Assembly (NCBI RefSeq): GCF_028368855.1
Contig: NZ_JAQNCY010000008.1
Coordinates: 1-64,000, forward strand
Length of the DNA: 64,000 nucleotides
Reading direction: 5' to 3'
From: Leisingera sp. SS27
GTDB lineage: Bacteria; Pseudomonadota; Alphaproteobacteria; Rhodobacterales; Rhodobacteraceae
Positions 10,832 through 40,508 of this stretch are shown here, one piece after another. The translations under genes and the position numbers were made by a program. Position 1 is the first letter of the stretch. Each line of letters begins with the position of its first letter. A model generated the notes under the pieces. It saw nothing but the letters and a program-made list of their open reading frames with translations, was not told the DNA's origin and did no database searches.

Positions 10832-10853
10832 TCCGCGCGTATCCGGATTTCTG

Positions 10854-13783: not shown

Positions 13784-14059
13784 CACCTTGTTTCGCTCGG
13801 CGAATCGCTGCGGCGACGGGCGGGAACAGTTGCAAGTCCGGGCGGTCCGGCTGATCTTCAGGAAGCGATTTGCATCGCGACTGGCAACAATGCCCCGGAG
13901 TTGGGTTGAGTGTTTTGCGGAAGTGTTTAATCGGCTTGTGCATTCGGCCGATTTTGAGAATGTTTTAACTAAAAATCAGGTAGATTTACCCGTATGGCCT
14001 AAGGGGTGGCCAGGTTTGAGACAGCTCCCTGGGGGGACTTAGGTGAAGGAATTTCGGTT

Positions 14060-14638: not shown

Positions 14639-14647
14639 GGGGGAAGC

Positions 14648-14953
14648 ATGATGATGAAAAGAACGCTTGGTCTTGTTGCGGTTATTTCACTCCTTGGAGC
14701 CTGCAGCGAAGCATTTGATAAAACCCGCGATGGCCACGTTGGCGATGGCAGCAACAATCACCTGTCCAACCTGACAGCCGGCATCTGGGTTGACCCGAAC
14801 GGTTGTGAACACTGGATCATCGACGATGGGCTTGAGGGCTACGCTGACCTCCGCCGCACGCCCGACGGGAAGCCGGTCTGCAACAGTGATATTCCGCCCA
14901 CCCTGGCGACCGGCCCCTTCAAGGACGGTTCGACTTTTGGCGACCCGATCTGA
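14648..14953 (+). CDS. Small lipoprotein sharing the WVDP-GCEHW motif
   Basis: This 101-residue protein has a lipoprotein signal (MKRTLGLVAVISLLGAC, lipid-modified Cys near residue 19) and then WVDPNGCEHWIIDDGLEGY with PDGKPVC, almost identical to the motif in the upstream OmpA protein. The two Cys of the motif are conserved in both and might form a disulfide (inference). It is co-transcribed with the OmpA gene and closed by a terminator. The function is unknown. The tandem ATGs at 14648, 14651 and 14654 make the exact start uncertain. Confidence 0.8.
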   Translation: MMMKRTLGLVAVISLLGACSEAFDKTRDGHVGDGSNNHLSNLTAGIWVDPNGCEHWIIDDGLEGYADLRRTPDGKPVCNSDIPPTLATGPFKDGSTFGDPI

Positions 14954-14975
14954 GACATACAACTTGCTTGATTTG

Positions 14976-15006
14976 CAGCCGCCCTCCGGGGCGGCTGTTT
15001 TTGTTT
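14976..15006 (+). terminator. Intrinsic terminator after the lipoprotein gene
   Basis: An eight-pair stem (cagccgcc and ggcggctg, loop ctccgg) is followed by tttttgttt. Confidence 0.85.
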
Positions 15007-15094
15007 CAAAAATGTGATTTTGCGCAGCGCCTGCTTGCGCAAACGCTGCCGCAGAGGCAGACTGAAGAGGCAACGCCAGATTGAGGAGATCAGC

Positions 15095-16105: not shown

Positions 16106-16123
16106 CGGACGCACTCAATCGGG

Positions 16124-16172
16124 CTTCATCTTTGTGAAAATACTCCGGGGGTGCGGGGGCTGGCCCCCGCGT
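16124..16172. repeat. Roseobacter-type intergenic element with GC hairpin
   Basis: Between phoH and ybeY, a tttgtgaaaatactccggg segment is followed by the perfect hairpin gcgggggc-tg-gcccccgc at 16153-16170. Sequences of this style recur between genes in Roseobacter genomes (recollection, not checked). Only one copy was seen in this window. Confidence 0.45.
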
Positions 16173-16185
16173 ATGCAACCGCATC

Positions 16186-16686
16186 ATGACGCTCGACATC
16201 TCTATCGAAGACAGCCGCTGGCAGAGGGGCGGCCTTGAGCCGCTGGCGGAAGAAGCCATCGCTGTTGTGCTGGCGCATTTCGGCCTTGATCCGGAAGTCT
16301 GCGAAATCTCGCTCTTGGCCTGCGATGACGCCCGGATCGCTGAGTTGAACGCTGAGTTCCGGGAAAAGGACAAGCCTACCAATGTTCTCAGCTGGCCGGC
16401 AGAGGAGCTGGCGGCCGAGGAGGACGGCGGCACGCCTTTGCTGCCAGAGGCCGATTTTACCGGGGAAATCCCGCTGGGTGACATTGCCATTTCCTATGAT
16501 ACCTGCGCCCGGGAAGCTGCCGGAGCGGGCAAAAACCTGGCCAACCATACCCGTCACCTGCTCATTCACGGACTGTTGCATCTTTTGGGCTATGATCACA
16601 TTCGTGACCGCGATGCCGCATTGATGGAAGGGATTGAGGTCCTGCTACTTGGCAAACTGGGTATCGCGAACCCATATAATAGTTAG
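16186..16686 (+). CDS. ybeY: Endoribonuclease YbeY (rRNA maturation factor)
   Basis: This 166-residue zinc-dependent protein acts in 16S rRNA 3' end maturation and ribosome quality control. The diagnostic metal motif HLLIHGLLHLLGYDH carries three His ligands near residues 126-136, and NVLSWPAEEL and GDIAISYDT are the other family signatures. The length is normal. It stands between phoH and corC, its usual partners. The ATG at 16186 follows the hairpin element by 14 bases, and no strong ribosome site is visible. Confidence 0.95.
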   Translation: MTLDISIEDSRWQRGGLEPLAEEAIAVVLAHFGLDPEVCEISLLACDDARIAELNAEFREKDKPTNVLSWPAEELAAEEDGGTPLLPEADFTGEIPLGDIAISYDTCAREAAGAGKNLANHTRHLLIHGLLHLLGYDHIRDRDAALMEGIEVLLLGKLGIANPYNS

Positions 16687-16690
16687 GACG

Positions 16691-16709
16691 CCCCGTGACC
16701 GGGGTTTTT
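16691..16709 (+). terminator. Weak hairpin with T-tract between ybeY and corC
   Basis: The hairpin ccccg-tgac-cgggg is followed by five T residues, 12 bases before the corC start. The short stem suggests partial termination or a leader structure, not a full stop. Confidence 0.45.
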
Positions 16710-16720
16710 GGAATGGAAAG

Positions 16721-17620
16721 ATGGGCGACATAGAAGGCAGTTCTAACGCGGCGCAGGGCGCGCTGAAGGACATCAACGGCACGGCGGCGGATGCTCCGGC
16801 CTCGGAAAATACCGGATTGTGGACGCGGTTGCGCAACATGTTCAGCGCCGATCTGCAGGAAGGCCAGGACACCTGCGGCGAACAGCCGGCGCCGGGATCA
16901 GCTCCGCACGGAATGATCAACCTGCGCCGGATGCGGGTGGAAGATGTCGCAATCCCCTCTGCTGAAATTGCCGCGGTGCCGGTCACTGTCGCCAAGGATG
17001 ATCTGGTCGGCATTTTCCGGCAAAGCGGTTTTACCCGCATTCCCGTTTACGAAGGCACACTCGACACGCCTCTGGGCTTTGTCCACCTCAAGGATTTTTC
17101 GCTGACTCATGGGTTCAACGGCGGCACCTCGGAGTTCGATCTCTCCAAGATGCTGCGTCCGCTGCTGTTCGTGCCGCCGTCGATGCCGATCGGCGTGCTG
17201 CTGACCAAGATGCAGGCCGAACGCCGCCACATGGCGCTGGTGATCGACGAATACGGCGGTGTTGACGGGCTTGTCACCATCGAAGACCTGATTGAACAGG
17301 TGGTGGGCGAAATCGAGGACGAGCATGACGCCGACGAACTGCAGACTTGGTTCGAAGAGAAGCCCGGTTGCTACATCGCGCTGGCCCGCACCTCGCTGCC
17401 GGAGTTTGAGGCGGAGACCGGCCATTCGCTGACCAGCCACGATGACGTGGATGAAGAGGAGATCGACACGCTTGGCGGGCTGGTCTTCATGTTGTCCGGC
17501 CGCGTGCCTGCGCGCGGCGAGGTGATCGAACACCCCGAAGGTGCCGAGTTCGAAGTCATGGATGCCGATCCGCGCCGGATCAAGCGGCTGCGGGTACGGC
17601 TGCCGGACGCCGCCGCTTGA
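16721..17620 (+). CDS. corC: CBS-domain protein, CorC/HlyC family
   Basis: This 299-residue soluble protein has two CBS domains (about residues 70-195, including MLRPLLFVPPSMPIGVLL and MALVIDEYGGVDGLVTIED) followed by a CorC_HlyC transporter-associated domain (TLGGLVFMLSGRVPARGE). Such proteins bind adenosine nucleotides and have been linked to magnesium and cobalt efflux; the role in this organism is not known. It starts at the ATG at 16721 with GGAA 8 bases upstream. Its stop overlaps the lnt start (TGATG), so translation is coupled. Confidence 0.9.
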   Translation: MGDIEGSSNAAQGALKDINGTAADAPASENTGLWTRLRNMFSADLQEGQDTCGEQPAPGSAPHGMINLRRMRVEDVAIPSAEIAAVPVTVAKDDLVGIFRQSGFTRIPVYEGTLDTPLGFVHLKDFSLTHGFNGGTSEFDLSKMLRPLLFVPPSMPIGVLLTKMQAERRHMALVIDEYGGVDGLVTIEDLIEQVVGEIEDEHDADELQTWFEEKPGCYIALARTSLPEFEAETGHSLTSHDDVDEEEIDTLGGLVFMLSGRVPARGEVIEHPEGAEFEVMDADPRRIKRLRVRLPDAAA

Positions 17621-19116
17621 TGGCACTGGGGCTGCGGCAGGCCGCGCGCCAGCTGCGTCTGGCCCAAGCGGCTCTTGCCTTTGGCAGCGGCGGGCTGCTG
17701 TCCTTGGCGCTGGCTCCCTGGCATATGCTGATCGGGCTGCCGGTCGCACTGGCCGCGGCTGGCTGGCTGGTGATGCATGCGCACTCCGCCCGCTCCGCTG
17801 CGCTGGCTGGATGGCTGTTCGGGCTGGGCTATTTCACTTTCGGCCTTTCCTGGATCATAGAGCCGTTTCAGGTTGACCCCGACCGTCACGCCTGGATGGC
17901 CCCCTTTGCGCTTGTTTTCCTGGCAGCGGGTCTCGCCTTGTTCTGGGGGTTGGCCTTCGGCCTTTCTGTCCGTTTCAGCCGGGCTGCCGCACGGATACCG
18001 GTGCTGGTGTCACTGTGGTCCCTGGCGGAATTTGCCCGCGCCTATCTGCTGACCGGTTTTCCCTGGGCTGCTTTCGGCCAGTTCTGGATGGATACGCCTG
18101 CCGCTGATCTGCTGCCCTGGATCGGGCCGCAGGGGCTGGCGCTGCTGACACTTGTCGCAGCCTTGCCGCTGGCCTTGCTGAGGACGAAACCTGCCGCGTC
18201 TCTGCTGCCGCTGGGATTGGCTGTGGCCGCAGTTGCTGGCGTTCCCCGTCCCAGTGAAACAGCACGGACAGACCGCATAGTGCGGATCGTTCAGCCCAAC
18301 GCGCCGCAGGAGCTGAAATGGCATCCGGAGCACAGGTGGGAATTCGTCCGCCGCGCGCTGGCATTCTCTGCCGAGGAGCCGCGTCCTGACTTGATCGTCT
18401 GGCCGGAAACTGCGGTTCCGCAGCTGATGAACTATGCCGGAGACACTCTGCAGGCCATTTCTGAACAGGCCGGCGGGGTCCCGGTCCTGCTGGGTATCCA
18501 GCGGGAGGAGGGCGGTGCCTACTTTAATTCTGCGGTGCTTCTGGATGCTGATGGCCTGCCAATAGCAACTTATGACAAGGCGCATCTGGTGCCGTTCGGG
18601 GAGTATGTTCCCTTTGGCGACTTTATGGCCCGTTTCGGGATCCACGGTTTTGCCTCCCAGGCCGGAGCGGGTTATGCCGCTGGCCCGGGGGCCAGGGTAA
18701 TGGATCTGCCTATCGGCAGTGCGTTGCCGCTGATCTGCTATGAGGCCGTTTTCCCGCAGGATGTGAGCGCCGCCGAAACCCGTCCGGACATGCTGGTGCA
18801 GATCACCAACGACGCCTGGTTCGGCACCCGCTCAGGTCCCTATCAGCATCTGGTTCAGGCGCGGATGCGGGCGCTGGAGCAAGGGCTGCCGATGATCCGG
18901 GCGGCCAACACCGGTGTCTCGGCCATGATTGCGCCGGACGGTTCGCTGCTGGATCAGCTGCCGCTTGGGGAAGCCGGCTTCATTGACGCGGCCCTGCCCG
19001 CGCCGTTGCCGCCGACGCTCTACAGCCGGACCGGGGACTGGCCTGTTCTGTGGTTGTGTTTCTTGATCGCCGGTGCGGCAATCTTTCTTCCCCGTGCTCT
19101 TGCGCCGCGGTCATAG
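17620..19116 (+). CDS. lnt: Apolipoprotein N-acyltransferase
   Basis: This 498-residue inner-membrane enzyme transfers the third acyl chain to the N-terminal Cys of lipoproteins. The first 210 residues form a run of hydrophobic helices. The periplasmic nitrilase domain has the Glu-Lys-Cys triad in IVWPETAVPQ, YDKAHLVPFGEYVP and PLICYEAVFPQD. QITNDAWFGTRSGPYQHL is also typical. The start ATG overlaps the corC stop. A final membrane helix closes the protein. The product should modify the lipoproteins encoded elsewhere in this window. Confidence 0.96.
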   Translation: MALGLRQAARQLRLAQAALAFGSGGLLSLALAPWHMLIGLPVALAAAGWLVMHAHSARSAALAGWLFGLGYFTFGLSWIIEPFQVDPDRHAWMAPFALVFLAAGLALFWGLAFGLSVRFSRAAARIPVLVSLWSLAEFARAYLLTGFPWAAFGQFWMDTPAADLLPWIGPQGLALLTLVAALPLALLRTKPAASLLPLGLAVAAVAGVPRPSETARTDRIVRIVQPNAPQELKWHPEHRWEFVRRALAFSAEEPRPDLIVWPETAVPQLMNYAGDTLQAISEQAGGVPVLLGIQREEGGAYFNSAVLLDADGLPIATYDKAHLVPFGEYVPFGDFMARFGIHGFASQAGAGYAAGPGARVMDLPIGSALPLICYEAVFPQDVSAAETRPDMLVQITNDAWFGTRSGPYQHLVQARMRALEQGLPMIRAANTGVSAMIAPDGSLLDQLPLGEAGFIDAALPAPLPPTLYSRTGDWPVLWLCFLIAGAAIFLPRALAPRS

Positions 19117-19141
19117 GTGCTTAACTCTATCGGAATATAGA

Positions 19142-19170
19142 TTGACCCGCGCGGATGGGCCGCGTAATGC
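19142..19170 (+). promoter_or_regulatory. Predicted sigma-70 promoter of metK
   Basis: A -35 box TTGACC at 19142-19147 and a -10 box TAATGC at 19165-19170 are separated by 17 bases. Transcription would start about 5 bases before the riboswitch, which supports both calls. Confidence 0.6.
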
Positions 19171-19181
19171 GGCTTGATACC

Positions 19182-19226
19182 TGCCACAACGGCTTCCTGG
19201 CGTGGCAAGGATAAAACAATGGAGCA
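19182..19226 (+). promoter_or_regulatory. SAM/SAH riboswitch controlling metK
   Basis: The leader contains tgccac at 19182-19187 pairing with gtggca at 19202-19207, enclosing aacggcttcctggc, and then aatggagca at 19218-19226. This matches the compact SAM/SAH riboswitch described upstream of metK in Rhodobacterales. In that class the loop pairs with the downstream ggagca to form a pseudoknot that hides the ribosome site when S-adenosylmethionine or S-adenosylhomocysteine is bound. Here ggag is the metK ribosome site, 8 bases before the ATG. Confidence 0.88.
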
Positions 19227-19232
19227 CTTTTC

Positions 19233-20414
19233 ATGACCCGTACGAACTACACCTTCACTTCGGAATCGGTTTCCGAAGGCCACCCGGATAAGGTCTGCGA
19301 CCGCATTTCCGACGCGGTTCTCGATGCTTTTCTGGCGGAAGAACCCGAAGCACGCGTGGCGGCTGAGACCTTTGCAACCACGAACCGCGTTGTGATCGGG
19401 GGGGAGGTCGGGCTGTCCGATCAGGACAAGCTGCACGATTACATGGGCAAGATCGAAGATATTGCCCGCGCCTGCATCAAGGACATCGGCTACGAGCAGG
19501 ACAAGTTTCACCACGAAACCGTGGAAGTGACAAACTTGCTGCACGAGCAGTCCGCCCACATCGCGCAGGGCGTTGACGCCTCGGGTGAAAAGGACGAAGG
19601 CGCCGGCGACCAGGGCATTATGTTCGGCTTTGCCACCAATGAAACCGACGCGCTGATGCCGGCCCCGATCCAGTTCAGCCACGCGATCCTGCGCCGTCTG
19701 GCCGAAGTGCGCAAGAACGGCGCCGAGCCGGTGCTTGGCCCGGATGCGAAATCCCAGCTGTCGGTGGTCTACGAGGATGGCAAACCGATTGGTGTCAGCT
19801 CGCTGGTGCTGTCGACACAGCATCTGGATGAAAGCCTGACCTCGGCGGATATCCGTGCCATTGTTGAACCTTACATCCGCGAAACCCTGCCCGAAGGCTG
19901 GCTGACAGATGCCACCCAGTGGCACGTGAACCCGACCGGCAAATTCGTGATTGGCGGTCCGGATGGCGACGCAGGGCTGACCGGGCGCAAGATCATCGTG
20001 GATACCTATGGCGGTGCAGCACCGCATGGCGGCGGCGCGTTTTCCGGTAAGGACCCGACCAAGGTGGACCGTTCGGCGGCCTATGCCGCGCGTTATCTGG
20101 CCAAGAATGTGGTGGCCGCGGGCATGGCTGAGAAATGCACGATTCAGCTGTCCTATGCCATTGGCGTCTCTAAGCCTCTGTCGATTTATGCCGAAACCCA
20201 TGGCACGGGCGAGGTTGACCCGGCGGCGATCGAACGGGCGATTGATCAGGTCATGGATCTGACCCCGCGCGGTATCCGCTCGCATCTTGGCCTGAACAAG
20301 CCGATTTACCAGCGCACCGCAGCCTATGGCCATTTCGGGCGCGAGCCGGAAGCGGACGGCGGCTTCAGCTGGGAGCGCTTGGATCTGGCCGACGCTCTGA
20401 AAAAAGCGGTCTGA
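19233..20414 (+). CDS. metK: S-adenosylmethionine synthase
   Basis: This 393-residue enzyme makes S-adenosylmethionine from methionine and ATP in the cytoplasm. [20 protein letters not shown] opens the ATP site, [16 protein letters not shown] is the methionine-binding signature, and [16 protein letters not shown] is the phosphate-binding loop. The length is normal. Translation is predicted to be controlled by the SAM/SAH riboswitch in its leader, giving end-product feedback. A strong intrinsic terminator follows, so it is a single-gene unit. Confidence 0.98.
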
Positions 20415-25626: not shown

Positions 25627-26772
25627 ATGACCACATTTCAGGACCGCCTGACTGCACTGCGCCGGGATTTCCACCGCCACCCTGAGCTTGGCTTTCAGGA
25701 GGAGCGCACCAGGGCCAAGATCGCGGAGCATCTGCGCAACTTGGGGCTGGAGGTGCACGAAGGCGCCGGTGTTATAGGGTTGCTGCGTGCTGGCGGCGGA
25801 AACCGTGCCATCGGACTGCGGGCGGATATGGACGCCCTTCCGATCACCGAAATCTCAACCCACGGCTATGTCTCGGAAACACCAGGCAAGATGCACGCCT
25901 GTGGTCATGACGGGCATATGGCAATGCTCCTGGGCGCCGCCGAACGGCTGGTGCAGGAGCAGGGGTTTGACGGCACTGTCGTGTTGATCTTCCAGCCCAA
26001 CGAAGAACACGGTCTGGGCGCCCAGGCGATGATTGCCGAGGGCGTGCTGGAGCAGTTCCCGATTGAAGAGGTTTATGCGATCCATAATCTGCCGGGCGCA
26101 CCGGTAGGGCAGATCTCGACCCGCTCCGGCCAGATTTGCAACAGCGAGAGCCTGTTCGAAATCGCGATCCAAGGCCAGGGAGGCCACGCCTCAATGCCGC
26201 AGGCAGGGGTGGACGCCATCACTGTCGGTGCCGAAATGGTGCTGGCGCTGCAAACCATCGTGGCGCGCAAACTGGCGCCCGGATCCGGGGCCGTGGTGTC
26301 TGTGACGGAATTTCTGACCGACGGCCAGCGGAATGTGCTGCCGGGTCACGCCGTGCTTAAGGGCGACGTGCGTGCACGTGTTCCCGAAGACCGTGAGGCG
26401 GTTGAGCGCTTCATGCGCCAGATCGCAGCCGGTGTTGCCGCGGCGCATGCAGTCGAAGCCGAAGTGAGCTTCAACACCGAGTTCGTCGAAACCATCAACG
26501 CAGATGGTCCGGCGGAGGCTGTCTACCGCGCTGGTGAGGCTGCAGGCCGCGAAGTGGTCCGTAACCGCCCGCCGATGAGCTTTTCCGAAGATTTTGCTCA
26601 TTTCTCGGCGGCCGTCCCGGGCTGCTTCCTGCTGTTGGGCAACGGCGAAGAGGGGCCGTGCGGCCAGCCGCTGCATTCGGCGGATTATGATTTCAACGAT
26701 GCTCTGCTGCCGATTGGCGCAGAATTCTGGGTGCAGCTGGTGCGTGACCGGCTGCCCGTAGGAAAGGACTGA
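25627..26772 (+). CDS. M20 family metallo-amidohydrolase
   Basis: This 381-residue enzyme is of the hippurate hydrolase, IAA-amino acid hydrolase and N-acetyl-diaminobutyrate deacetylase (DoeB) type, which removes an acyl group from an amino nitrogen. Metal-binding signatures are KMHACGHDGHMAMLLGA, QPNEEHGLGAQAMIAEG (with the general base Glu) and SEDFAHFSAAVPGCF. RDFHRHPELGFQEERT begins the domain. I chose the ATG at 25627, which has GGAGAG upstream. It is separated by 2 bases from the next gene, the first of four cotranscribed catabolic genes. Confidence 0.9.
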   Translation: MTTFQDRLTALRRDFHRHPELGFQEERTRAKIAEHLRNLGLEVHEGAGVIGLLRAGGGNRAIGLRADMDALPITEISTHGYVSETPGKMHACGHDGHMAMLLGAAERLVQEQGFDGTVVLIFQPNEEHGLGAQAMIAEGVLEQFPIEEVYAIHNLPGAPVGQISTRSGQICNSESLFEIAIQGQGGHASMPQAGVDAITVGAEMVLALQTIVARKLAPGSGAVVSVTEFLTDGQRNVLPGHAVLKGDVRARVPEDREAVERFMRQIAAGVAAAHAVEAEVSFNTEFVETINADGPAEAVYRAGEAAGREVVRNRPPMSFSEDFAHFSAAVPGCFLLLGNGEEGPCGQPLHSADYDFNDALLPIGAEFWVQLVRDRLPVGKD

Positions 26773-26774
26773 CC

Positions 26775-27965
26775 ATGCTTGAAAAATTTAACGTTGCCAT
26801 CCGCCATGCGGCGGGAAATCCGAACACCGTAGAAGCGGCCTATTCGGTTCTCTCTGAGCAGGATTTTGCGAATGCGCAGGCGGAAATAACGGCCTGGGAG
26901 GGTTATGAGGCGACGCCGCTGGTGTCCTTGGCGGGTCTGGCCGGACAGATTGGCGTCGGGCGGATCGACTACAAGCACGAAGGCCCGCGGTTTGGCCTCG
27001 GCAGCTTCAAGGCGCTGGGCGGGTCATATGCGGCGCTGCGGGTGCTCCAGCGCGAGCTGACCAAACAGCTGGGCCGGGACGTCAGCCTGGAGGAAATCCG
27101 CAACGGTGCCCACAAGGACGCCTGTGCCGGGATCACCCTGGTTTCCGCCACCGACGGCAATCATGGCCGTTCTCTGGCCTGGGGCTGCCAGCGGTTCGGC
27201 GCGCCTTGCCGCATCTACATCCATGCCGAGGTCAGCGAGGGGCGCGCTGTGGCGATGCGCGAACTGGGCGCCGAAGTGATCCGCATTACAGGCGATTATG
27301 ACGAATCCGTCCTGCTGGCCAAGAAAGAGGCGGAGGAAAACGGCTGGTTTGTGGTCTCAGACACCTCCTGGGAAGGCTATACTGAGCCGCCGCGCGACGT
27401 GATGGCAGGCTATAGTGTGATGACCCGCGAGGCCTGCGAGGCACTGGCACAGGCGCCGACTCACGTATTCCTTCAGGGGGGCGTTGGCGGCTTGGCGGCA
27501 TCGGTCGCTGCGGCGCTGCGGCAGTTCTACGGTACGGCTTCCCCGCGGGTCGTGATTGTCGAGCCGGAGCTGGCGGCTTGCCTGTTCGACAGTGCCAAAG
27601 CCGGCAAGGCGACCAATTTCGCCATTCAGGAGGAAACCATCATGGCGGGCCTCTCCTGCGGCGAGCCGTCGGAAATGGCTTGGGAAATCCTGGCCGAGGA
27701 GGCTGCGGACTTCGTGACGATCCCTGACAGTATTGTAGCTCCCGCGGTGCGCTTGCTGGCAAATGCTGAAACCGGCGATCCGGTGGTGGAGGCAGGCGAA
27801 AGCGCGGTGGCGGGTCTGTCTGCCCTGATCGCCGCCTGCCAGTCGCCGGAAATGAAGGCTACCCAGGGTCTCGATGAAACCTCCCGCGTGCTGCTGATCG
27901 GCTCCGAAGGTGTCACCGACCCGGCGATTTTCGCTGCGATCATGGAAGGCAAAGACCATGTCTGA
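26775..27965 (+). CDS. dpaL: Diaminopropionate ammonia-lyase-like PLP enzyme
   Basis: This 396-residue fold-type II PLP enzyme matches diaminopropionate ammonia-lyase, which splits 2,3-diaminopropionate into pyruvate and ammonia. The Schiff-base lysine is Lys79 in GLGSFKALGGSYAALRV, and SATDGNHGRSLAWG and FLQGGVGGLAASVAAALRQ (phosphate-binding) are typical. SDTSWEGYTEPPRDVMAGY distinguishes it from threonine dehydratases. It sits between a deacylase and an M24 hydrolase, so the substrate in this pathway may be a related diamino acid. The stop overlaps the next start by eight bases (ATGTCTGA). Confidence 0.88.
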   Translation: MLEKFNVAIRHAAGNPNTVEAAYSVLSEQDFANAQAEITAWEGYEATPLVSLAGLAGQIGVGRIDYKHEGPRFGLGSFKALGGSYAALRVLQRELTKQLGRDVSLEEIRNGAHKDACAGITLVSATDGNHGRSLAWGCQRFGAPCRIYIHAEVSEGRAVAMRELGAEVIRITGDYDESVLLAKKEAEENGWFVVSDTSWEGYTEPPRDVMAGYSVMTREACEALAQAPTHVFLQGGVGGLAASVAAALRQFYGTASPRVVIVEPELAACLFDSAKAGKATNFAIQEETIMAGLSCGEPSEMAWEILAEEAADFVTIPDSIVAPAVRLLANAETGDPVVEAGESAVAGLSALIAACQSPEMKATQGLDETSRVLLIGSEGVTDPAIFAAIMEGKDHV

Positions 27966-29124
27966 CGCGCCTGTGCGCGGCTTCCCCGAGGCGGAATTCG
28001 CCGCGCGCACCGAAAAGGCTCAGGCGCTTATGGCGGCGCAGGGTTTGGACGGGCTGCTGCTGCTGACAGAACCGGAGGTGCGCTATTTCAGCGGGTTCCA
28101 CACGCTGTTCTGGCAAAGCCCGACCCGGCCCTGGTTCCTGTTCGTGCCGCCTGCGGGCAAACCGATTGCCATCATTCCAGAGATCGGCGCGGACCTGATG
28201 CGCCGGACCTGGATCAAGGACATCCGCACCTGGAGCGCGCCGGCTCCGCAGGATGATGGCATCAGCCTGCTGACAGAGCTGCTCGAGCCCATTGCCGGGC
28301 GCGGGGGCACCATTGGCCTGATGAAGGGGCACGAAACTTCGCTCAGAATGCCGCTGGGGGACTACGAGCGGCTGATCGCGGGGCTGCCGGGGCTCAAGGT
28401 GGCGGATGCCACGCCGATAGTGCGCGGCCTGCGGATGGTGAAATCCGCAGCCGAAATTGAAAAGCTGCGCCACATCTGCGGCATTGGCTCCCGCACCTTT
28501 GCCCAAGTGCCTCAGATCGCCCATGCAGGGCAGCCGTTCGAGGATCTGTTCCGCGCCTTCCGGCGCGAGGCGCTGGCGCAGGGGGCGGATGACGTGCCCT
28601 ACCTGGTCGGCGGTGCTTATCAGGGCGGCTACAGCGACGTGATCTCGCCGCCGACCACGCGGCCGCTTCAGGCAGGCGATATCGTGATGCTGGATACCGG
28701 CGCCACCTGGGACGGGTATTTCTGCGACTTCGACCGGAACTTCGCCATCGGCCGTGCTGATGATCTGTCGCGCCGCGCCTATGATGTGCTGTGGCGCGCC
28801 ACAGAAGCAGGTATTGCTGCAGCCAAACCCGGCGCCACCTGCCGCGATCTGTTCCGGGCGATGCAGTCCGTGATTGCCGAAATGGACGATCAGGGCGGTG
28901 ACGTTGGGCGTCTCGGCCATGGGCTGGGGATGCAGCTGACCGAATGGCCCTCGCATGCGGCATTCGATGAGACCGTGATTGAGGAAAACATGGTGCTGAC
29001 GCTGGAACCCTCGCTAGGCTATGGCGATGGCCGTATCATGGTGCATGAAGAAAACATCGTGGTGCGTGCGGACGGCGCAGAATTGCTGACCGTCCGTGCC
29101 GCGCCGGAACTGCCGGTGATCTGA
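27958..29124 (+). CDS. M24-fold metallohydrolase (creatinase/prolidase family, DoeA-like)
   Basis: This 388-residue protein has the N-terminal creatinase domain and a C-terminal pita-bread domain. Metal ligands appear complete: Asp246 in VMLDTGATWDGYF, Asp257 in FCDFDRNF, His321 in RLGHGLGMQLTEWPS, Glu350 in MVLTLEPSLGYGDG and Glu364 in MVHEENIVV. Members include Xaa-Pro peptidases, creatinase and ectoine hydrolase (DoeA/EutD). Its position after a deacylase and a PLP lyase favours a small cyclic or N-blocked amino acid as substrate over a dipeptide (inference). The ribosome site lies inside the preceding gene. Confidence 0.88.
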   Translation: MSDAPVRGFPEAEFAARTEKAQALMAAQGLDGLLLLTEPEVRYFSGFHTLFWQSPTRPWFLFVPPAGKPIAIIPEIGADLMRRTWIKDIRTWSAPAPQDDGISLLTELLEPIAGRGGTIGLMKGHETSLRMPLGDYERLIAGLPGLKVADATPIVRGLRMVKSAAEIEKLRHICGIGSRTFAQVPQIAHAGQPFEDLFRAFRREALAQGADDVPYLVGGAYQGGYSDVISPPTTRPLQAGDIVMLDTGATWDGYFCDFDRNFAIGRADDLSRRAYDVLWRATEAGIAAAKPGATCRDLFRAMQSVIAEMDDQGGDVGRLGHGLGMQLTEWPSHAAFDETVIEENMVLTLEPSLGYGDGRIMVHEENIVVRADGAELLTVRAAPELPVI

Positions 29125-29139
29125 AGGAGGCCCCGCGCC

Positions 29140-29895
29140 ATGAAGCTCCCCTATGACACGGACGCAGGTATTGGCAGCCGCGCCACCCTGGGTGTGATCG
29201 TGCTGGAGACCGACGAAACGCTGGAGCCGGAATTCTCCCGGATGATGGCGCAACCCGGCGTGGCGCTCTATCACAGCCGCATCCCGATGGTGCCGGAGGT
29301 GCGCCCGGAGACGCTGGCGCAGATGCAGGCAGACCTGCCTGCTTCGGCGCAGCTGTTTCCCTCCACGCCGGACTTTGACGTGATCGGCTATGGCTGCACC
29401 TCGGCCTCGACCGTGATCGGCTCCTCCAAGGTGGCTGAGGCCGTGCAGACCGTTCTGCCGAACGCCAAGGTGACCGATCCGCTGGCCGCTATCATCGCGG
29501 CAGGCAAGGCGCTGGGCGCTGCCAGGTTTGGATTTGTAACGCCATACCTGCCGGAGGTTTCGGCGCAGATGCGCGCCAAGCTGGAAGCGGCAGGTTTTGA
29601 CATTGCAGGCTTCGGATCGTTCGAGCAGATGGACGACCGGGTGGTGGCCCGGATCTCCGAGTCGGCAATTGCGGAGGCAGCCGCCCAGGTCGCCGGTCAG
29701 GAAGACTGCGATGCAATCGTGATCTCCTGCACCAACCTGCGCTGCCTGCGGATCATACCCGGGATTGAGGCTCAGACGGGTGTGCCGGTCATCTCCAGTA
29801 ACCAGGCGCTGGGCTGGCACATGCTGCGGCTGGCAGGCGTGACAGATCCGCAGCCGCAGTTCGGTAAACTGTTCACTCTGCCGCTTGCTGGCTGA
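29140..29895 (+). CDS. Aspartate/glutamate racemase-family protein (EutA or arylmalonate decarboxylase type)
   Basis: This 251-residue protein has the Asp/Glu racemase superfamily fold with two candidate catalytic Cys, Cys86 in YGCTSASTVIG and Cys197 in ISCTNLRCLRIIPG. LGVIVLETDETLEPEF and ALYHSRIPM recall maleate isomerase, arylmalonate decarboxylase and EutA of ectoine catabolism. Its ribosome site is AAGGAGG, 15 bases after the M24 stop. It closes the four-gene unit; an isomerase or racemase step on an amino acid intermediate is the most economical role. Confidence 0.85.
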   Translation: MKLPYDTDAGIGSRATLGVIVLETDETLEPEFSRMMAQPGVALYHSRIPMVPEVRPETLAQMQADLPASAQLFPSTPDFDVIGYGCTSASTVIGSSKVAEAVQTVLPNAKVTDPLAAIIAAGKALGAARFGFVTPYLPEVSAQMRAKLEAAGFDIAGFGSFEQMDDRVVARISESAIAEAAAQVAGQEDCDAIVISCTNLRCLRIIPGIEAQTGVPVISSNQALGWHMLRLAGVTDPQPQFGKLFTLPLAG

Positions 29896-30038: not shown

Positions 30039-31589
30039 ATGCCTGCCGCACGCCCCGAAAACCGGAATGTCCTGTTCGTTATCATTGACCAACTGCGCGC
30101 GGACTGCCTGTCGGGTGCGCTGGCGGACCATGTGGACCTGCCGAACATCCGCTCCTTCATGCAGGAGGCGGTATCGTTCAACCGGCATTTTTCTGTGACC
30201 AACCCCTGCGGACCATCGCGCGCGTCGATCCTGACCGGGCAGTACGCCATGAACCACCGCTCGGTCCGCAATGGCACGCCCCTGCGCCACGACACGCCGA
30301 ATATCGCCACCGAAATGCGCAAGGCCGGCTACCTGCCGATGCTGTTCGGCTATACCGATACATCGCAGGACCCCCGCGCATTTGACGCCAACGATCCGGC
30401 GCTCCGGACCTATGAATACCCGATGAACGGGTTTCATGAAGTGACCGAGATGCGGCTGGAGATGTCCTACCCGTGGCAGTCGCATCTGATGAGCCGCGGC
30501 TACGAATTCGAGACCTACTGGGACGTCTACAAGCCGGTTTCGCCGGACGGTGCTGCGCTCCGTCTGAACGGCCCGGCGCTGTACGCGGCAGAGGACAGCG
30601 ATACCGCATTTCTCACCAACTCATTTCTCAACACGATGCCGGCCCACAGCAAGGACAGCTGGTTTGCGCATCTGACCTACATCCGCCCGCACCCGCCGCT
30701 TGTGGCGCCGGCGCCCTACAACAGCATGTATGACCCCGCCAGCCTGCCGCTGCCGCAGCGGCTGGCAAATCCGGAAGAGGAAAGCGCACAGCACCCGTTC
30801 TTCGGCCCGCTGCTGCGCAAAAGCACCGCTGCCAGCTTTGTCGAAGGCTTCCCGGATCTGGAGCCAACGGATGAAAACATTCAAACCCTGCGTGCGGTCT
30901 ACCTGGGGCTGGCAACGGAAGTCGATCATCATGTCGGGCGGGTAATCCGGTTCCTGAAGGACAGTGGGCAGTATGACAGTACTATGGTGGTGATCACCGC
31001 TGACCATGGCGAAATGCTGGGCGACCGGCATTCCTGGGGCAAGATGACGGTCTATGATGCCGCCTACCACACGCCGCTGATCATCCGGCTGCCGGGCAAC
31101 GAGCAGAACGCGGGCGCCTGCCTGTCTCAGATCACGGAATCCATTGATGTGACACCGACCATTCTTAAGTGGGTGGGGCAGGAGGTCCCGAATTCCATGG
31201 ACGGGCGGTCTCTGCTGCCGCTCCTGCGCGGAGAGACACCGCAGGACTGGCGGCAGTATTCCTTCTCGGAGCTGGATTTCTCGGAGCCGCTTGAGCCGAC
31301 ACTGTGGCAGCAGGAGCTGGGCGCCACTGCCAGTGATTCCTGCCTTGGTATCCTGCGGGATGAGCGGTTCACGCTGGTCGAGTTCGCCGCCGACCTGCCG
31401 CCGATGCTGTTTGACAGCCAGGGACGGGGGGAAATGGAGAACGTGGCTGGGCAGGCGGAATATGCAGATGATCTGAACCGGCTGACCCGGCTCATGCTGC
31501 GCCACCGGATGAAGAACATGGACCATACGCTCTCGCTGACGGCGATCACGGGTGAAGGTCCCCGCAGCAAGCCTCGCTATCCGCAGTAA
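30039..31589 (+). CDS. Sulfatase or phosphonate monoester hydrolase
   Basis: This 516-residue protein is of the alkaline phosphatase superfamily. Cys57 in NPCGPSRASILTGQY fits the C-x-P-S-R motif that is converted to formylglycine. The metal ligands start with Asp17 in FVIIDQLRADCL, and ITADHGEMLGDRHSWGK gives the second set. TPTILKWVGQEVPN with MDGRSLLPLL is the typical C-terminal region. The CGPSR form is shared by arylsulfatases and phosphonate monoester hydrolases. No signal peptide is visible, so it probably acts in the cytoplasm, which favours the latter. The ATG has AGGAAG upstream. Confidence 0.87.
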   Translation: MPAARPENRNVLFVIIDQLRADCLSGALADHVDLPNIRSFMQEAVSFNRHFSVTNPCGPSRASILTGQYAMNHRSVRNGTPLRHDTPNIATEMRKAGYLPMLFGYTDTSQDPRAFDANDPALRTYEYPMNGFHEVTEMRLEMSYPWQSHLMSRGYEFETYWDVYKPVSPDGAALRLNGPALYAAEDSDTAFLTNSFLNTMPAHSKDSWFAHLTYIRPHPPLVAPAPYNSMYDPASLPLPQRLANPEEESAQHPFFGPLLRKSTAASFVEGFPDLEPTDENIQTLRAVYLGLATEVDHHVGRVIRFLKDSGQYDSTMVVITADHGEMLGDRHSWGKMTVYDAAYHTPLIIRLPGNEQNAGACLSQITESIDVTPTILKWVGQEVPNSMDGRSLLPLLRGETPQDWRQYSFSELDFSEPLEPTLWQQELGATASDSCLGILRDERFTLVEFAADLPPMLFDSQGRGEMENVAGQAEYADDLNRLTRLMLRHRMKNMDHTLSLTAITGEGPRSKPRYPQ

Positions 31590-36267: not shown

Positions 36268-36360
36268 AACTGTGCATTATCTAAATCATCAGATTTTTCA
36301 ACCGTCACAACATCCGCGCCGGGTCTTATTGTTCCGCAACGCCTGAAGATGGAGAGCCCC

Positions 36361-37881
36361 ATGGCCCGACGCGCCCGCGCATCCCGTGACAGAAACACTG
36401 CCCCCGCCGACGTTCCGGCGTCGCCCTGGATCCAGCGCACGCTGCCGTTCTTTGACGCTCTGGATGAGGAGAAGCTGGTCAAGCTGGAAGCACAGGTTGA
36501 CTGGATATTCGAAGAAGTCGGCATTGCCTTCCGCGACGACCCGGAGGCGCTGCGGATCTGGAAGGAAGCCGGCGCCAGGATCGACGGCGATACAATCCGG
36601 GCTGATGCGCAGTGGATCCGCTCCCTTTGCGCCAAGGCGCCGCGGGAGTTCACGCAGCTGGCCCGCAACCCGGCGCGGTCGGTCACCATTGGCGGCAACA
36701 ACCAGGTGTTTGCCCCGATCTATGGCGCGCCGTTTGTGCGGGATCTGGAGGACGGGCGGCGCTATGGCGATATGGCGGCGTTCGAGAAACTGGTGAAGCT
36801 CACCTATATGCATCCGAACCTGCATCACGGCGGGTTTGTGATCTGCGAACCTTGTGACGTGCCGGTGAGCAAGCGCCACTTCGACATGCTGTTTGCCCAT
36901 ATGACGCTGAGCGACAAACCGCATCTGGGCGCCATCACCGAGATGTCCCGCGCACAGGACAGTGTCGACATGGCCGAAATCGTCTTTGGCAAGGACGTCA
37001 TGGACAACAACTGCGTGATCATGGGCAATGTGAACACCAATTCACCGCTCCTGGTGGACAAGGTGGTGACGGAGGCAATCAGGGTCTATTGCGGGCGGAA
37101 TCAGGGAATTGTGGTTGTTCCCTTTATCCTCTCGGGTGCCATGGGGCCGGTCTCTACTGCCGCCTCGGTGGCGCAGGCGATGGCGGAGGCGATGATGTGC
37201 TGCGCCTTTGCCCAGATCGTCCGTCCCGGCGCACCGTTTGTGCTGGGCAACTTCCTGTCGTCGATGTCGCTGAAGTCCGGCGCGCCGACGTTCGGGATGC
37301 CGGAGCCGGTGGTGTCGAACTATGCCATCGGCCAGCTGGCGCGCCGGGCCGGGCTGCCCTTGCGCTGCGGCGGGTCACTGACCGCCTCCAAGATCGAGGA
37401 TGCGCAGGCGGCCTATGAAAGCGCCGACTCGATGCATTCCACCATGCTGGCCGGGGCCAATTTTGTGCTGCATTCGGCGGGCTGGCTGGAAGGCGGGCTG
37501 TGCACCGGGTTTGAGAAGCTGATCATGGATGCGGACCGGCTGGGGTCCTACCAGAAGGTGCTGAGCCAGGGGCTGGATACCAGCGACGAGGCGATGGCCC
37601 GTGATGCCTACGCCGAAGTGGCGCCGGGCGGGCACTTCCTGGGTTCCGGTCACACCATGCGCAACTACCAGACCGCGTTTTATGAGCCGAAGCTGAGCGA
37701 CAGCGAGAATGTCGAGAGCTGGGAAGAAGGCGGGTCCAAGGACATGCGCCAGCGCGCCTATGAGCGCTGGAACCAGATGCTGAACGAGTATCAGGCGCCG
37801 CCAATGGATGAGGCGGTGAAAGAGGAACTGGCCGCCTATGTTGCCCGCCGCAAGGAGGAGATCCCGGATGCGTGGTTCTGA
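36361..37881 (+). CDS. MttB-family methyltransferase, non-pyrrolysine type
   Basis: This 506-residue protein matches the trimethylamine methyltransferase (MttB) superfamily: LEAQVDWIFEEVGIAF, TIGGNNQVFAPIYGAPFV, GNVNTNSPLLVDK and GSLTASKIEDAQAAYESAD. There is no in-frame amber codon, so it is of the non-pyrrolysine branch that includes glycine betaine and related quaternary-amine methyltransferases. These transfer a methyl group to a corrinoid protein, but no corrinoid protein gene lies nearby. I chose the ATG at 36361, with GGAGAG 6 bases upstream. The FAD dehydrogenase gene follows in the same direction. Confidence 0.88.
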   Translation: MARRARASRDRNTAPADVPASPWIQRTLPFFDALDEEKLVKLEAQVDWIFEEVGIAFRDDPEALRIWKEAGARIDGDTIRADAQWIRSLCAKAPREFTQLARNPARSVTIGGNNQVFAPIYGAPFVRDLEDGRRYGDMAAFEKLVKLTYMHPNLHHGGFVICEPCDVPVSKRHFDMLFAHMTLSDKPHLGAITEMSRAQDSVDMAEIVFGKDVMDNNCVIMGNVNTNSPLLVDKVVTEAIRVYCGRNQGIVVVPFILSGAMGPVSTAASVAQAMAEAMMCCAFAQIVRPGAPFVLGNFLSSMSLKSGAPTFGMPEPVVSNYAIGQLARRAGLPLRCGGSLTASKIEDAQAAYESADSMHSTMLAGANFVLHSAGWLEGGLCTGFEKLIMDADRLGSYQKVLSQGLDTSDEAMARDAYAEVAPGGHFLGSGHTMRNYQTAFYEPKLSDSENVESWEEGGSKDMRQRAYERWNQMLNEYQAPPMDEAVKEELAAYVARRKEEIPDAWF

Positions 37882-37938
37882 GTTAAGAAACTCTTCACCC
37901 ATTTCCACAGCTTATGCAGGAAATGCCGGATTGACCCG

Positions 37939-37982
37939 GCACCCCCTGTGCACCCCCCGTACACCACTTGTGCACCCCCTGG
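37939..37982. repeat. Four 11-bp tandem repeats upstream of the dehydrogenase gene
   Basis: Four direct repeats stand head to tail: gcaccccctgt, gcaccccccgt, acaccacttgt and gcaccccctgg, at 37939, 37950, 37961 and 37972. The array ends 51 bases before the next start codon. The 11-base period keeps all units on one face of DNA, which suggests iterated binding sites. Confidence 0.65.
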
Positions 37983-38033
37983 GTGCCGTTTGCCGCAATT
38001 CCCGCCTTGTGCCCCAGATCTGAGGACAAACCC

Positions 38034-40508
38034 ATGTCAGACAATTTTGCCCAATCGACGCTCAACATCCACAAGGAGGAGAGCACCGGAGACAAGAAAC
38101 TGCCGAGCCACGCCAAGGCGGTGATCATTGGCGGCGGTGTGGTTGGCTGTTCGATCCTGTTCCACCTGGCCAAATTCGGCTGGAAGGATGTTGTGCTGCT
38201 GGAACGGGATGAGCTGACCTCCGGCTCCTCCTGGCACGCGGCGGGGCAGATCCATACGATTTCGTCCGATCCCAACATCTCGCGCCTGCAGTCCTACACC
38301 ATCGACCTGTATAAGGAGATCGAGGAGACCTCCAGCCACTCCGTCGGTCTGCACATCACTGGCGGGTTTTATCTGGCGTCGAACAAGACCTGGTACGACT
38401 ACCTGAAGCGGGAACGCTCCAAGGCGCGTTACATGGGTTTGAACCAGGAGTTCATCAGCCCCAAGGAAGTGGCCGAGCGCCATCCGCTGATTGATCCGAA
38501 ACATTACCACGCGGCGCTGTGGGATGATCAGGACGGCGATCTGGACCCGTCGGGCGCGACCTATGCCTTTGCCAAGTCCGCCCGCGTGCATGGCGCGCAG
38601 TATTTCACCCATACGCCGGTGACCGGTACCACTCAGCGCGCCGACGGCAGCTGGGATGTGACCACTCCGCGCGGTGTGATCAATGCCGAGCACATCGTGA
38701 ACTGCGGCGGGCTGTGGGCGCGGGAAGTCGGCCACATGCAGGGCGTCAACCTGCCGGTGCAGCCGATGGAGCACCATTACCTGATCACCGACAAGATCGA
38801 CGCGGTGGCCAACCACCCGACCCGCCTGCCGGCCGGCATCGACTATGAAGCCAACATCTATTTCCGGCAGGAACGGCAGGGGATGCTGCTGGGCACCTAT
38901 GAGCCGAAGGGCACGCCCTGGAAGGTGGGCGGCACGCCCTGGGATTTCGGGCATGAGCTGCTGCAGCCGGATCTGGACCGGATTGCCGACCGTCTGGAGA
39001 TGTCGTTTGAGCGTATCCCGGCCATCGGGGAGGCGGGCATCAAGGATATGATCAACGGGCCGTTTACATTCGGTCCCGACGGCAACCCGATGATCGGCCC
39101 AGTGCCGGGCATGAAGAACTACTGGTGTGCCGTGGGCGTGATGGCGGGCTTCTGCCAGGGCGGCGGCGTGGGCCTGACCATGGCCGAATGGATGATCGAC
39201 GGTGAGCCGTCCATCGACGTCTGGGCGATGGATGTGGCGCGGTTCGGTGAGTTTGCGACGCCCGACTGGGGTACCGTGAAATCGACCGAGAACTACGAGC
39301 GCCGGTTTGTGATGACCTTCCCGAACGAGACGCTGCCGAAGGGGCGGATGCAGAAGACCACTGCGTTGTACGACCGTCTGGTCGCCAAGGGCGCGCGGAT
39401 GGGGCAGGGCTTTGGCCTGGAGAATGCGCTGTGGTTTGCTGATGGGCCGGAGGATGCGCATGAGGAGCCGACGTTTGAGCGCAACCGCTCGCATGAGTAT
39501 GTGGCGCGCGAGGTGAAGGCGGTGCGCGAGGCCGTGGGCGGCATCGAGATTGCCAACTTTGCCAAGCATGAATTCAAGGGCGCAGGCGCGCGGGCCTATC
39601 TGGACCGCGTGCTGGCGGGATACGTGCCGAAGCCGGGCCGCCTGACCCTGACACCGATGCTGACGCCGAAGGGAAAGCTGTACGGCGATCTGACTGTGGC
39701 CTGCCTGGGTGAGGAGCATTTCATGCTGTTCGGCTCCGGCGCCATGCAGGAGGCGCACCGCCGCTGGTTCGAGAAGGACCTGCCCGCGGATGTGTCGTAC
39801 CAGAACGTCTCTGACGACTGGCATGGTATTGCCCTGTCGGGTCCGAAGTCGCGGGAACTGCTGCAGCGGATTACGCGCGAGGATGTCTCGGGCGAGGCGT
39901 TCAAGTTCCGCGATCTGCGCCAGACCTTTGTCGGCGGCGTGCCGGTGATCCTGAACCGGATCAGCTTCTCGGGCGAGCTGGGCTATGAGATCTACTGCAA
40001 GCCGCAGTACCTGCTGCGCCTGGCGGAGGCGATCGAGGAGGCGGGCGCCGATCTGGGCTATCGCTGGTACGGGGCGCGCGCGCTGATGTCGATGCGTCTG
40101 GAGAAGGGCTGGGGCGTCTGGACGCTGGACTTCCGCCCCGATTTCGACGCGGCGGAGAGCGGCATGGATGTCTTCATCAACTGGAAGAAGGATTTCGTGG
40201 GCAAGGAAGCCGCGCTGAAGGCCAAGGAGGCTGGGGCAAGCCGCAAGCTGGTCACCATGACCATCGACGTGGACGGCATAGATGTGTCGAACGACGAGGC
40301 GATCCTGAAGGATGGCGAGGCGGTTGGCTACATCTCCTCGGGCGGCTATGCGCATCACGCAAAGACCTCTATGGCGATGGGCTATGTCTCGGCGGAGCAC
40401 GCCGCGGCCGGTACCAAACTGCAGATCGAGATCCTGGGCGAGATGTATGACGCCGAAGTGCTGGGCGCGCCGATTTATGACGCCAACGGCGCCAATATGC
40501 GCGCGTGA
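38034..40508 (+). CDS. FAD-dependent demethylating dehydrogenase with GcvT domain (dimethylglycine/sarcosine dehydrogenase type)
   Basis: This 824-residue protein has an N-terminal DAO domain (AVIIGGGVVGCSILFHLAK, DELTSGSSWHAAGQIH, where the His is the usual covalent-FAD neighbourhood), an FAO_M linker near residues 385-440, and a C-terminal GcvT aminomethyltransferase domain (ISFSGELGYEIYCKP, WTLDFRPDFDAAES). Enzymes of this build oxidise N-methyl groups and pass the one-carbon unit to tetrahydrofolate. Together with the mttB-type gene this suggests stepwise demethylation of a quaternary amine. The ATG at 38034 has a GAGGA site. The AraC-type gene follows after 22 bases. Confidence 0.9.
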   Translation: MSDNFAQSTLNIHKEESTGDKKLPSHAKAVIIGGGVVGCSILFHLAKFGWKDVVLLERDELTSGSSWHAAGQIHTISSDPNISRLQSYTIDLYKEIEETSSHSVGLHITGGFYLASNKTWYDYLKRERSKARYMGLNQEFISPKEVAERHPLIDPKHYHAALWDDQDGDLDPSGATYAFAKSARVHGAQYFTHTPVTGTTQRADGSWDVTTPRGVINAEHIVNCGGLWAREVGHMQGVNLPVQPMEHHYLITDKIDAVANHPTRLPAGIDYEANIYFRQERQGMLLGTYEPKGTPWKVGGTPWDFGHELLQPDLDRIADRLEMSFERIPAIGEAGIKDMINGPFTFGPDGNPMIGPVPGMKNYWCAVGVMAGFCQGGGVGLTMAEWMIDGEPSIDVWAMDVARFGEFATPDWGTVKSTENYERRFVMTFPNETLPKGRMQKTTALYDRLVAKGARMGQGFGLENALWFADGPEDAHEEPTFERNRSHEYVAREVKAVREAVGGIEIANFAKHEFKGAGARAYLDRVLAGYVPKPGRLTLTPMLTPKGKLYGDLTVACLGEEHFMLFGSGAMQEAHRRWFEKDLPADVSYQNVSDDWHGIALSGPKSRELLQRITREDVSGEAFKFRDLRQTFVGGVPVILNRISFSGELGYEIYCKPQYLLRLAEAIEEAGADLGYRWYGARALMSMRLEKGWGVWTLDFRPDFDAAESGMDVFINWKKDFVGKEAALKAKEAGASRKLVTMTIDVDGIDVSNDEAILKDGEAVGYISSGGYAHHAKTSMAMGYVSAEHAAAGTKLQIEILGEMYDAEVLGAPIYDANGANMRA

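Follow-up and report, generated by a model that had tools for sequence, protein, structure and literature searches.

A four-gene operon of Leisingera sp. SS27 that resembles ectoine degradation and encodes a predicted diaminopropionate ammonia-lyase

Known ectoine degradation systems (Doe/Eut, as in Halomonas doeABCD) combine a hydrolase of the M24 fold, a deacylase, a EutA-type protein and a lyase or dehydratase of pyridoxal phosphate (PLP) fold type II. A four-gene operon of Leisingera sp. SS27 holds the same kinds of proteins but is built around a diaminopropionate ammonia-lyase (DAPAL), which raises the question of the substrate that it degrades. The operon lies in a stretch of 64,000 nucleotides (RefSeq assembly GCF_028368855.1, contig NZ_JAQNCY010000008.1, positions 1 to 64,000 of the forward strand), called the window in the following, on contig 29 of 30 of a 4.8 Mb genome. 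Judged by the M24 protein, the closest named relative among the matches listed is Leisingera sp. ANG-M7 (98%).

A preliminary description of this DNA had assigned the four proteins to the M20 family, diaminopropionate ammonia-lyase, the M24 family and a two-Cys racemase type. All four families were recovered from the open reading frames and from profile models (Table 1). The interpretation given there, that the M24 and M20 enzymes release a diamino acid by the same two reactions as in ectoine catabolism, is partly supported. The analogy with ectoine use is stronger than was apparent at that stage, but the identity of the two reactions is not supported. We give an even chance to a catabolic operon that runs parallel to ectoine degradation and ends in a step of its own: an ectoine-like solute would be processed by M24 and M20 hydrolyses, and diaminopropionate would be cleaved at the end. 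This view is drawn, from sequence, from the gene set and its recurrence, from the ectoine-type transporters and DoeA genes linked to it in relatives, from the predicted catalytic residues of the lyase and from the putative metal site of the M24 protein.

The proteins of the operon

The M24 protein is not DoeA, the corresponding hydrolase of ectoine degradation, which is ruled out by score, identity and metal site. Against the DoeA model TIGR02993 it reaches 52.3 bits (cut-off 613), and it is 25% identical to the DoeA of its own genome. At the metal positions the window protein has Asp, Asp, His, Glu and Glu, whereas the own DoeA has Glu, Pro, Tyr, Met and Thr. On these points the earlier assumption of the same two reactions is not supported. 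The intact metal ligands reported before were found as D246, D257, H321, E350 and E364, and they are invariant in all 151 distinct rows of the M24 alignment (alignment counts here and below refer to distinct aligned rows). Residues S54, P55, R57, P58 and W59 occur in 149 or 150 of these rows and T56 in 134.

An ordinary peptidase is disfavoured by the loss of the peptidase His residues. Position 328 is Thr in 151 of 151 rows, where all four solved M24 peptidases shown carry the His of the VHE or IHE motif. The His of the peptidase PHG motif aligns with position 227 in the alignment to 1wy2; this position is Asp in 141 rows and His in none of the 151. A His is present at the adjacent position 226 in 27 rows and hence is not conserved, and none of the 151 rows has a His at positions 228–232. 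The VHE/IHE and PHG His residues are the catalytic His residues of M24 peptidases. With the five metal ligands kept, T328 present and a conserved PHG His missing, the protein is probably no ordinary peptidase; it represents a distinct M24 subfamily. Its AlphaFold model has a pLDDT of 87.7 and a pTM of 0.87, with pLDDT values below 50 at residues 316–323 and 325–329, the stretches that hold H321 and T328. In a fold search with this model, prolidases, DoeA and creatinase match about equally well; by sequence, the solved structures that come closest belong to dipeptidases, most of them of the Xaa-Pro type.

The lyase is predicted to be a diaminopropionate ammonia-lyase by a curated family model (NF006058, 474.7 bits, cut-off 276) and by its active-site residues. 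It misses the equivalog of the E. coli type (TIGR03528, 322.9 bits, cut-off 532.25) and reaches 48.4 of 413 bits with the EutB model. In the alignment to the E. coli-type enzyme structure 4d9g, K79, D127 and D196 are the PLP-binding Lys and two Asp residues, counterparts of K77, D120 and D189. Residues matching K77, D120, Y168 and D189 are kept in 66 of 66 rows of the operon-type lyase. D120 and D189 are the catalytic Asp residues of the E. coli enzyme, their positions being read from the alignments.

For the M20 enzyme and the fourth protein, a protein of ectoine use is the best equivalog, yet both score below its cut-off and thus are not members of these families. The M20 protein passes the amidohydrolase family TIGR01891 (309.8 bits, cut-off 153.75) and reaches 323.5 of 550 bits with DoeB2 (NF038260), an acetyl-diaminobutyrate deacetylase model. 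The best NCBIfam match of the fourth protein is EutA (TIGR02990, 201.3 bits, cut-off 318). Its two Cys residues, which had been pointed out before, are C86 and C197; the former is present in 135 of 135 rows, the latter in 134, with one gap.

A diaminopropionate ammonia-lyase together with an M20 enzyme is also known from YgeX/YgeY of E. coli, with which the catalytic residues align. The window operon was rejected as one of this type, since both equivalog models are missed: the M20 protein reaches 33.3 of 321 bits with the YgeY model NF009555, and the lyase falls short of TIGR03528. The ygeX region is not known to include partners of the M24 or EutA-like kind.

Junctions of 2 and 8 bases had been described between the genes. 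The former is a gap between the M20 and lyase genes (26773–26774) and the latter an overlap of the lyase and M24 genes (27958–27965). A third junction, unmentioned before, is the 15-base gap between the M24 and EutA-like genes (29125–29139).

Table 1. Predicted genes of the operon and its 3' neighbour, with positions in the window
Feature	Position	Strand	Remarks
M20 deacylase	25627-26772	+	381 amino acids; open reading frame call and profile matches; alternative upstream ATG at 25570 possible
Diaminopropionate ammonia-lyase (DAPAL), PLP fold type II, predicted	26775-27965	+	396 amino acids; NF006058 cut-off passed
M24-family metallohydrolase, distinct subfamily	27958-29124	+	388 amino acids from ATG 27958; M24 with Creatinase_N
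EutA-like two-Cys racemase/isomerase-type protein	29140-29895	+	251 amino acids; Amdase, Asp/Glu racemase and TIGR02990 models
Sulfatase-type hydrolase	30039-31589		PehA model, 458 of 900 bits

Recurrence of the gene set and its links to ectoine genes

A canonical ectoine set is present elsewhere in the same genome. Contig C28 holds a MocR-type EhuR, DoeA (C28:64789; 820.7 bits over a cut-off of 613), an adjoining DoeB (623.6 over 402.7) and an aminotransferase, and the window set is therefore a second, parallel one. EutB and EutC were not found above cut-off in this genome, the best matches reaching 196 of 413 and 160.5 of 471.65 bits; a pair on contig C7 among these matches is BhcB and BhcD of the beta-hydroxyaspartate cycle. 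In contrast to known ectoine degradation clusters, the operon itself is devoid of DoeA, EutE/DoeB, EutB, EutC, the aminotransferase and Ssd. Its deacylase is of the M20 and not the M14 family.

Recurrence was counted in 198 genomes of the family, each from a different genus, and in 398 genomes of the phylum. Genomes were drawn evenly in both samples, and kinship was corrected for on the M24 tree only. The M24 subfamily, called at E 1e-60, is present in 101 of the 198 family genomes at 103 places. Within 3 kb of these places there is a lyase in 82 cases, a EutA-like gene in at least 84 and both in at least 70; EutA counts are lower bounds, as the matches listed extend down to about 155 bits. 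Neither a lyase nor, among the matches listed, a EutA-like gene accompanies M24 at 7 of the 103 places. M24 is also present in every one of the 21 genomes that have a close relative of the M20 protein (at least 69% identity). In the phylum sample M24 was found in 24 genomes, comprising 18 of the family (the own genome included), four others of the same class and two from outside the class. The gene set is thus shared by many genera and extends to another class; its assembly is not due to chance. Separation of the genes in relatives, which the preliminary description had named as evidence against its reading, is partly observed: at the 17 places of the operon-type lyase in the family sample, M24 is nearby in 11, M20 in 10 and a EutA-like gene in at least 14.

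The best 80 of 528 confirmed loci were analysed by name; some of their contigs are short. Among all loci read, some genomes are represented twice (L086/L147, L087/L154). Within 8 kb of M24 the 80 named loci have M20 in 45 cases, DAPAL in 51, a second lyase type (PLP2) in 12, either lyase in 63, a EutA-like gene in 65, an Lrp/AsnC regulator in 44 and a FAD/GcvT-type oxidase in 10. TRAP and Ehu-like transporters were found at five and six loci, respectively. Three forms can be distinguished. In form A an Lrp/AsnC regulator faces M20-DAPAL-M24-EutA. Form B has PLP2, in some cases with a TRAP transporter, facing M20-M24-EutA. Form C joins M20-DAPAL-M24 to a FAD/GcvT-type oxidase, a EutA-like gene, a UTRA-type regulator and an EhuB-like ABC transporter.

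Similar sets lie on an annotated plasmid of Aliiroseovarius crassostreae and on a plasmid of Phaeobacter sp. G2, the latter with no EutA-like gene annotated, while a plasmid of Roseovarius pelagicus carries form C. All four gene kinds and a TRAP transporter are found on a plasmid of Photobacterium sp. TY1-4. On a plasmid of Vibrio cortegadensis, M24 and M20 flank a BCCT transporter, and the lyase gene is encoded on the opposite strand. Sinorhizobium alkalisoli and Agrobacterium pusense combine DAPAL-M24 with an amino acid ABC transporter and a Zn hydrolase; Aminobacter has a EutA-like gene, M24, an M20 and an amino acid ABC transporter.

PLP2 is the main lyase type of the family sample; of its 81 places, 67 are no more than 500 bases away from M24. 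The counterpart of D120 is Ala in all 46 PLP2 rows aligned at this position (three more are gaps), and those of K77, Y168 and D189 are retained. In diaminopropionate lyase, the two Asp residues act on the D- and L-enantiomers of the substrate. PLP2 would then take one enantiomer only, which, if so, would fit its frequent racemase-type partner. A SAGNH motif is present in 15 of 15 lyase rows of form B (13 loci); the window lyase has TDGNH and the EutB of locus L241 STGNH. A quick tree of 128 M24 rows, with SH-aLRT support only, has at least four swaps between DAPAL and PLP2 (shuffled mean 30), also beside the clade of the window; rows L107, L111 and L112 are labelled DAPAL in it according to their record annotation, without which the number is five. 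Among the 12 named loci with PLP2, M20 and the EutA-like gene are each present in 11. Since the lyases swap beside constant partners, they probably act on the same intermediate.

Two side observations concern relatives of these enzymes at other places. Other DAPAL genes at L082, L083, L084 and L097 (genomes G137, G107, G153 and G007) are accompanied by a carbon-nitrogen hydrolase-type gene in four of four cases, and by an N-carbamoyl hydrolase-type gene and a TRAP transporter in three of four each, the clusters being named from L083. These loci perhaps represent a separate route for ureido compounds. At L224, L225, L226 and L228, M20 relatives located away from the lyase adjoin another M24-fold protein (cluster k8), which is 25% identical to the window M24 in the two cases scored.

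The earlier statement that no transporter is adjacent holds for the window, in which no ectoine-type transporter was found and no transporter of any kind adjoins the operon. It does not extend to the modules of relatives, which carry transporters of the ectoine, BCCT, amino acid and polyamine types. No oligopeptide permease was seen among them, with no search aimed at one. The binding protein of the polyamine type has 8jv1 as its best solved match. For the Photobacterium TRAP binding protein the best solved matches are UehA 3FXB (6e-61), then 3GYY, also a TeaA structure, and TeaA 2VPN. In the own genome, an ABC binding protein encoded on contig C3 matches EhuB 2Q88 best (5e-25) and scores below the cut-off of the EhuB model (173.8 bits, cut-off 190.9). 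The structures 3FXB, 2VPN and 2Q88 are described in PMC5924519 as UehA, TeaA and EhuB with ectoines, and the same paper lists an asnC gene in eut clusters as well. Pockets of this type bind their ligands by cation-pi contacts, salt bridges and hydrogen bonds, according to PMC2871039. The module TRAP proteins (six of six rows from five genomes, one of them represented twice) keep Glu, Arg, Trp and one Phe of the pocket, whose F66 and F209 are replaced by His and Tyr, respectively. In the EhuB-like proteins three aromatic residues and an Arg are kept in 10 of 10 rows, and Ile or Val replaces E21. The pocket positions of TeaA, UehA and EhuB were located on the alignments. The changed positions would fit a ligand that is like ectoine but other than ectoine itself.

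The EhuB-like protein on C3 belongs to a sister cluster (L085, G000 C3:12001-32000; 8397–19999), which comprises a UTRA regulator, a EutA-like protein, an M24 protein (55%), a FAD/GcvT oxidase and the EhuB-like ABC transporter, followed by a further M24-like and a EutA-like protein. It resembles form C without M20 and lyase. On contig C2 a module-type Lrp (71%) lies by a possible regulator, a TRAP transporter and a universal-stress-like short protein (L278, G000 C2:4001-24000; 5798–10875). This TRAP transporter is of another kind than the UehA-like one that was looked for in the genome.

DoeA lies close to the module in some relatives. At L078 (genome G036, C34:52001-72000; 1459–11777, minus strand), M20, DAPAL, M24, a EutA-like gene, four polyamine-type ABC transporter genes and DoeA (649.9 bits, above cut-off) are collinear on one strand. 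In genomes G141 and G024 a trio of PLP2, M24 and EutA continues from EutB, EutC and an ectoine-type aminotransferase, and faces DoeA and an ArgE-type deacetylase. A sister trio in G129 lies by an aminotransferase, DoeA and ArgE, with no EutB or EutC match in the 19 kb read. The module is close to DoeA in these four loci as read; by match coordinates, picked by eye, M24 and DoeA lie within 10 kb of each other in eight of the 83 genomes with both. Overall, DoeA (E 1e-100) is present in 127 of 198 genomes, namely 83 of 101 with M24 and 44 of 97 without it (Fisher p 6.6e-8, uncorrected for kinship). No match at this threshold was found in 18 of the 101 M24 genomes and in 3 of the 17 genomes with the operon-type lyase (G076, G169 and G184), and these three are 99–100% complete. 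Hence, the module cannot always depend on DoeA. Taken with the EutA-like fourth protein, the Lrp/AsnC regulators and the transporters of relatives, the nearby DoeA genes strengthen the resemblance to ectoine catabolism that was proposed at the outset.

The proposed pathway and its alternatives

If the operon is of a parallel ectoine type, an ectoine-like solute would be imported by a system encoded elsewhere, for which the EhuB-like ABC transporter on C3 is a candidate. The EutA-like protein would set the stereochemistry, the M24 metallohydrolase would open a ring or cleave an amide, and the M20 enzyme would strip off an acyl residue. This would release 2,3-diaminopropionate, or a 2,3-diamino acid that closely resembles it, from which the lyase would form pyruvate and two molecules of ammonia. 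The order of these steps, the substrate and a ring opening by the M24 protein, rather than cleavage of an open-chain amide, are what we infer. A bolder form of this proposal, which we think rather unlikely, assumes an unrecognised natural cyclic compatible solute that would be related to ectoine but have 2,3-diaminopropionate as its backbone. A metal-dependent M24 enzyme of a new kind would open it, and transporters that evolved from those for ectoine would take it up. A 2-methyl-imidazoline-4-carboxylate would be an example, possibly N-methylated for the sister clusters.

Several observations weigh against a parallel ectoine-type pathway. The M24, M20 and EutA-like proteins all miss the cut-offs of the ectoine equivalogs, and a natural analogue of ectoine with a diaminopropionate backbone is not known. 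The SPTRPW motif at positions 54–59 of the M24 protein is not exclusive to the subfamily, its Arg occurring in 18 and its Pro in 17 of 23 distant M24 rows. A UehA-like TRAP protein was not found in the own genome at E 1e-30. M24 and DoeA do not lie within 10 kb of each other in 75 of the 83 genomes with both, and of the 21 close relatives of M20, 9 are found at a distance from both lyase and M24. At 17 of the 80 named loci, some of them on short contigs, neither lyase is present within 8 kb. Ruegeria THAF33 has M20-DAPAL only, with no M24 or EutA-like gene annotated alongside, and Leisingera sp. ANG1 (L119) retains M20, M24 and the EutA-like gene with no lyase match between M20 and M24.

The main rival is a branch of 5-hydroxyectoine use. 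Here a DoeA from elsewhere would open the ring, M20 would deacetylate and M24 would be accessory, while the EutA-like protein and the lyase would together replace EutABC by elimination from 3-hydroxy-2,4-diaminobutyrate. A genome with DoeA and DoeB, and with no EutB or EutC above cut-off, suits such a branch, as do the co-occurrence of DoeA with M24 and the trio of G141 and G024, which continues from EutB, EutC and the aminotransferase and faces DoeA. The same two genomes, however, have EutB and EutC alongside the trio, which thus is no simple replacement of these enzymes. In addition, DoeA is missing from part of the M24 and lyase genomes, and the operon-type lyase retains both Asp counterparts, D120 and D189. 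We regard this branch as unlikely. That the operon simply serves growth on peptides or N-acyl amino acids is improbable in our view. This would make the M24 protein a prolidase-like dipeptidase, the M20 protein an aminoacylase, the lyase a general scavenger of 2,3-diaminopropionate or serine and the fourth protein a racemase. The dipeptidases among the nearest structures, the even-handed fold search and the intact metal ligands agree with it; T328 in all rows and the missing His at 227, in spite of the 27 rows with His at 226, do not, and neither do the types of the linked transporters, among which no oligopeptide permease was seen (nor specifically searched for).

Quite improbable, finally, is the breakdown of an N-methylated or N-carbamoylated diaminopropionate, such as a ureido form, or an N-methyl form for which the FAD/GcvT enzyme of the sister cluster would be required. 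Form C unites M20-DAPAL-M24 with this oxidase and an EhuB-like transporter, but the oxidase gene is near M24 in just 10 of the 80 named loci and is not part of the window operon. The Ile or Val at the position of Glu 21 in all 10 EhuB-like rows would be in line with such a substrate. The pairing of DAPAL at L083 with an N-carbamoyl-type hydrolase above its curated cut-off points in the same direction, whereas two rhizobial loci with a hydrolase of this type have no M20 of the window kind annotated, in a gene table that is incomplete.

Surroundings of the operon and meaning of the module

On its 3' side the operon is followed by the sulfatase-type hydrolase and then by a Mn/Zn-type ABC transporter, as judged from open reading frames of the window and profile matches. 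The sulfatase-like gene adjoins the operon in four of four Leisingera loci (L117–L120) with 85–95% identity. Among the other 76 named loci only L189 matched, with 30% identity, and the gene was excluded from the operon because it is nearly absent beside loci from outside Leisingera. No riboswitch above the Rfam gathering scores was found 5' of the operon. The promoter scan gave no match on the plus strand, and the other results of the promoter and terminator scan were close to background.

Rfam matches in the whole window are two, one tRNA and a SAM-SAH riboswitch (19178–19226) just 5' of an S-adenosylmethionine synthetase-like gene (19233–20414). At 36349–40508 an MttB-like methyltransferase (229 of 525 bits) is followed by an oxidoreductase that is 32% identical to the FAD/GcvT protein on C3; this pair possibly serves the use of methylamine or betaine.

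Searches of an open-licence library gave no description of this operon or module. Putative ectoine clusters of Bacillaceae offer a possible parallel, since they contain, according to PMC13188858, an "additional eutD homolog" by eutA and eutB. They share with the module a second M24-type gene by eutA and eutB and nearby BCCT, Ehu or Ueh transporters. In contrast to it they are known from searches with EutD, and the word diaminopropionate has no occurrence in the searched text of that source. The additional eutD may be a cousin of the window M24.

The M24 subfamily, with its metal site kept and the peptidase His lost, would stand beside DoeA and creatinase. It may also be relevant to the extra eutD-like gene of some ectoine clusters, for which there is as yet no explanation. 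The organism of L078, in which the four genes of the window type, a transporter and DoeA stand together, is the best type for a genetic test. Ectoines are nitrogen-rich nutrients of marine bacteria, and a parallel module, whose M24 gene is present in 101 of 198 sampled genera of the family and which is found in other Alphaproteobacteria and in Vibrionaceae as well, with transporters derived from those for ectoine, suggests another solute of this sort, produced by some cells and consumed by others. If this solute is indeed built on a diaminopropionate backbone, a route for its use would be kept by many marine genera, and the solute would presumably be common in the sea.

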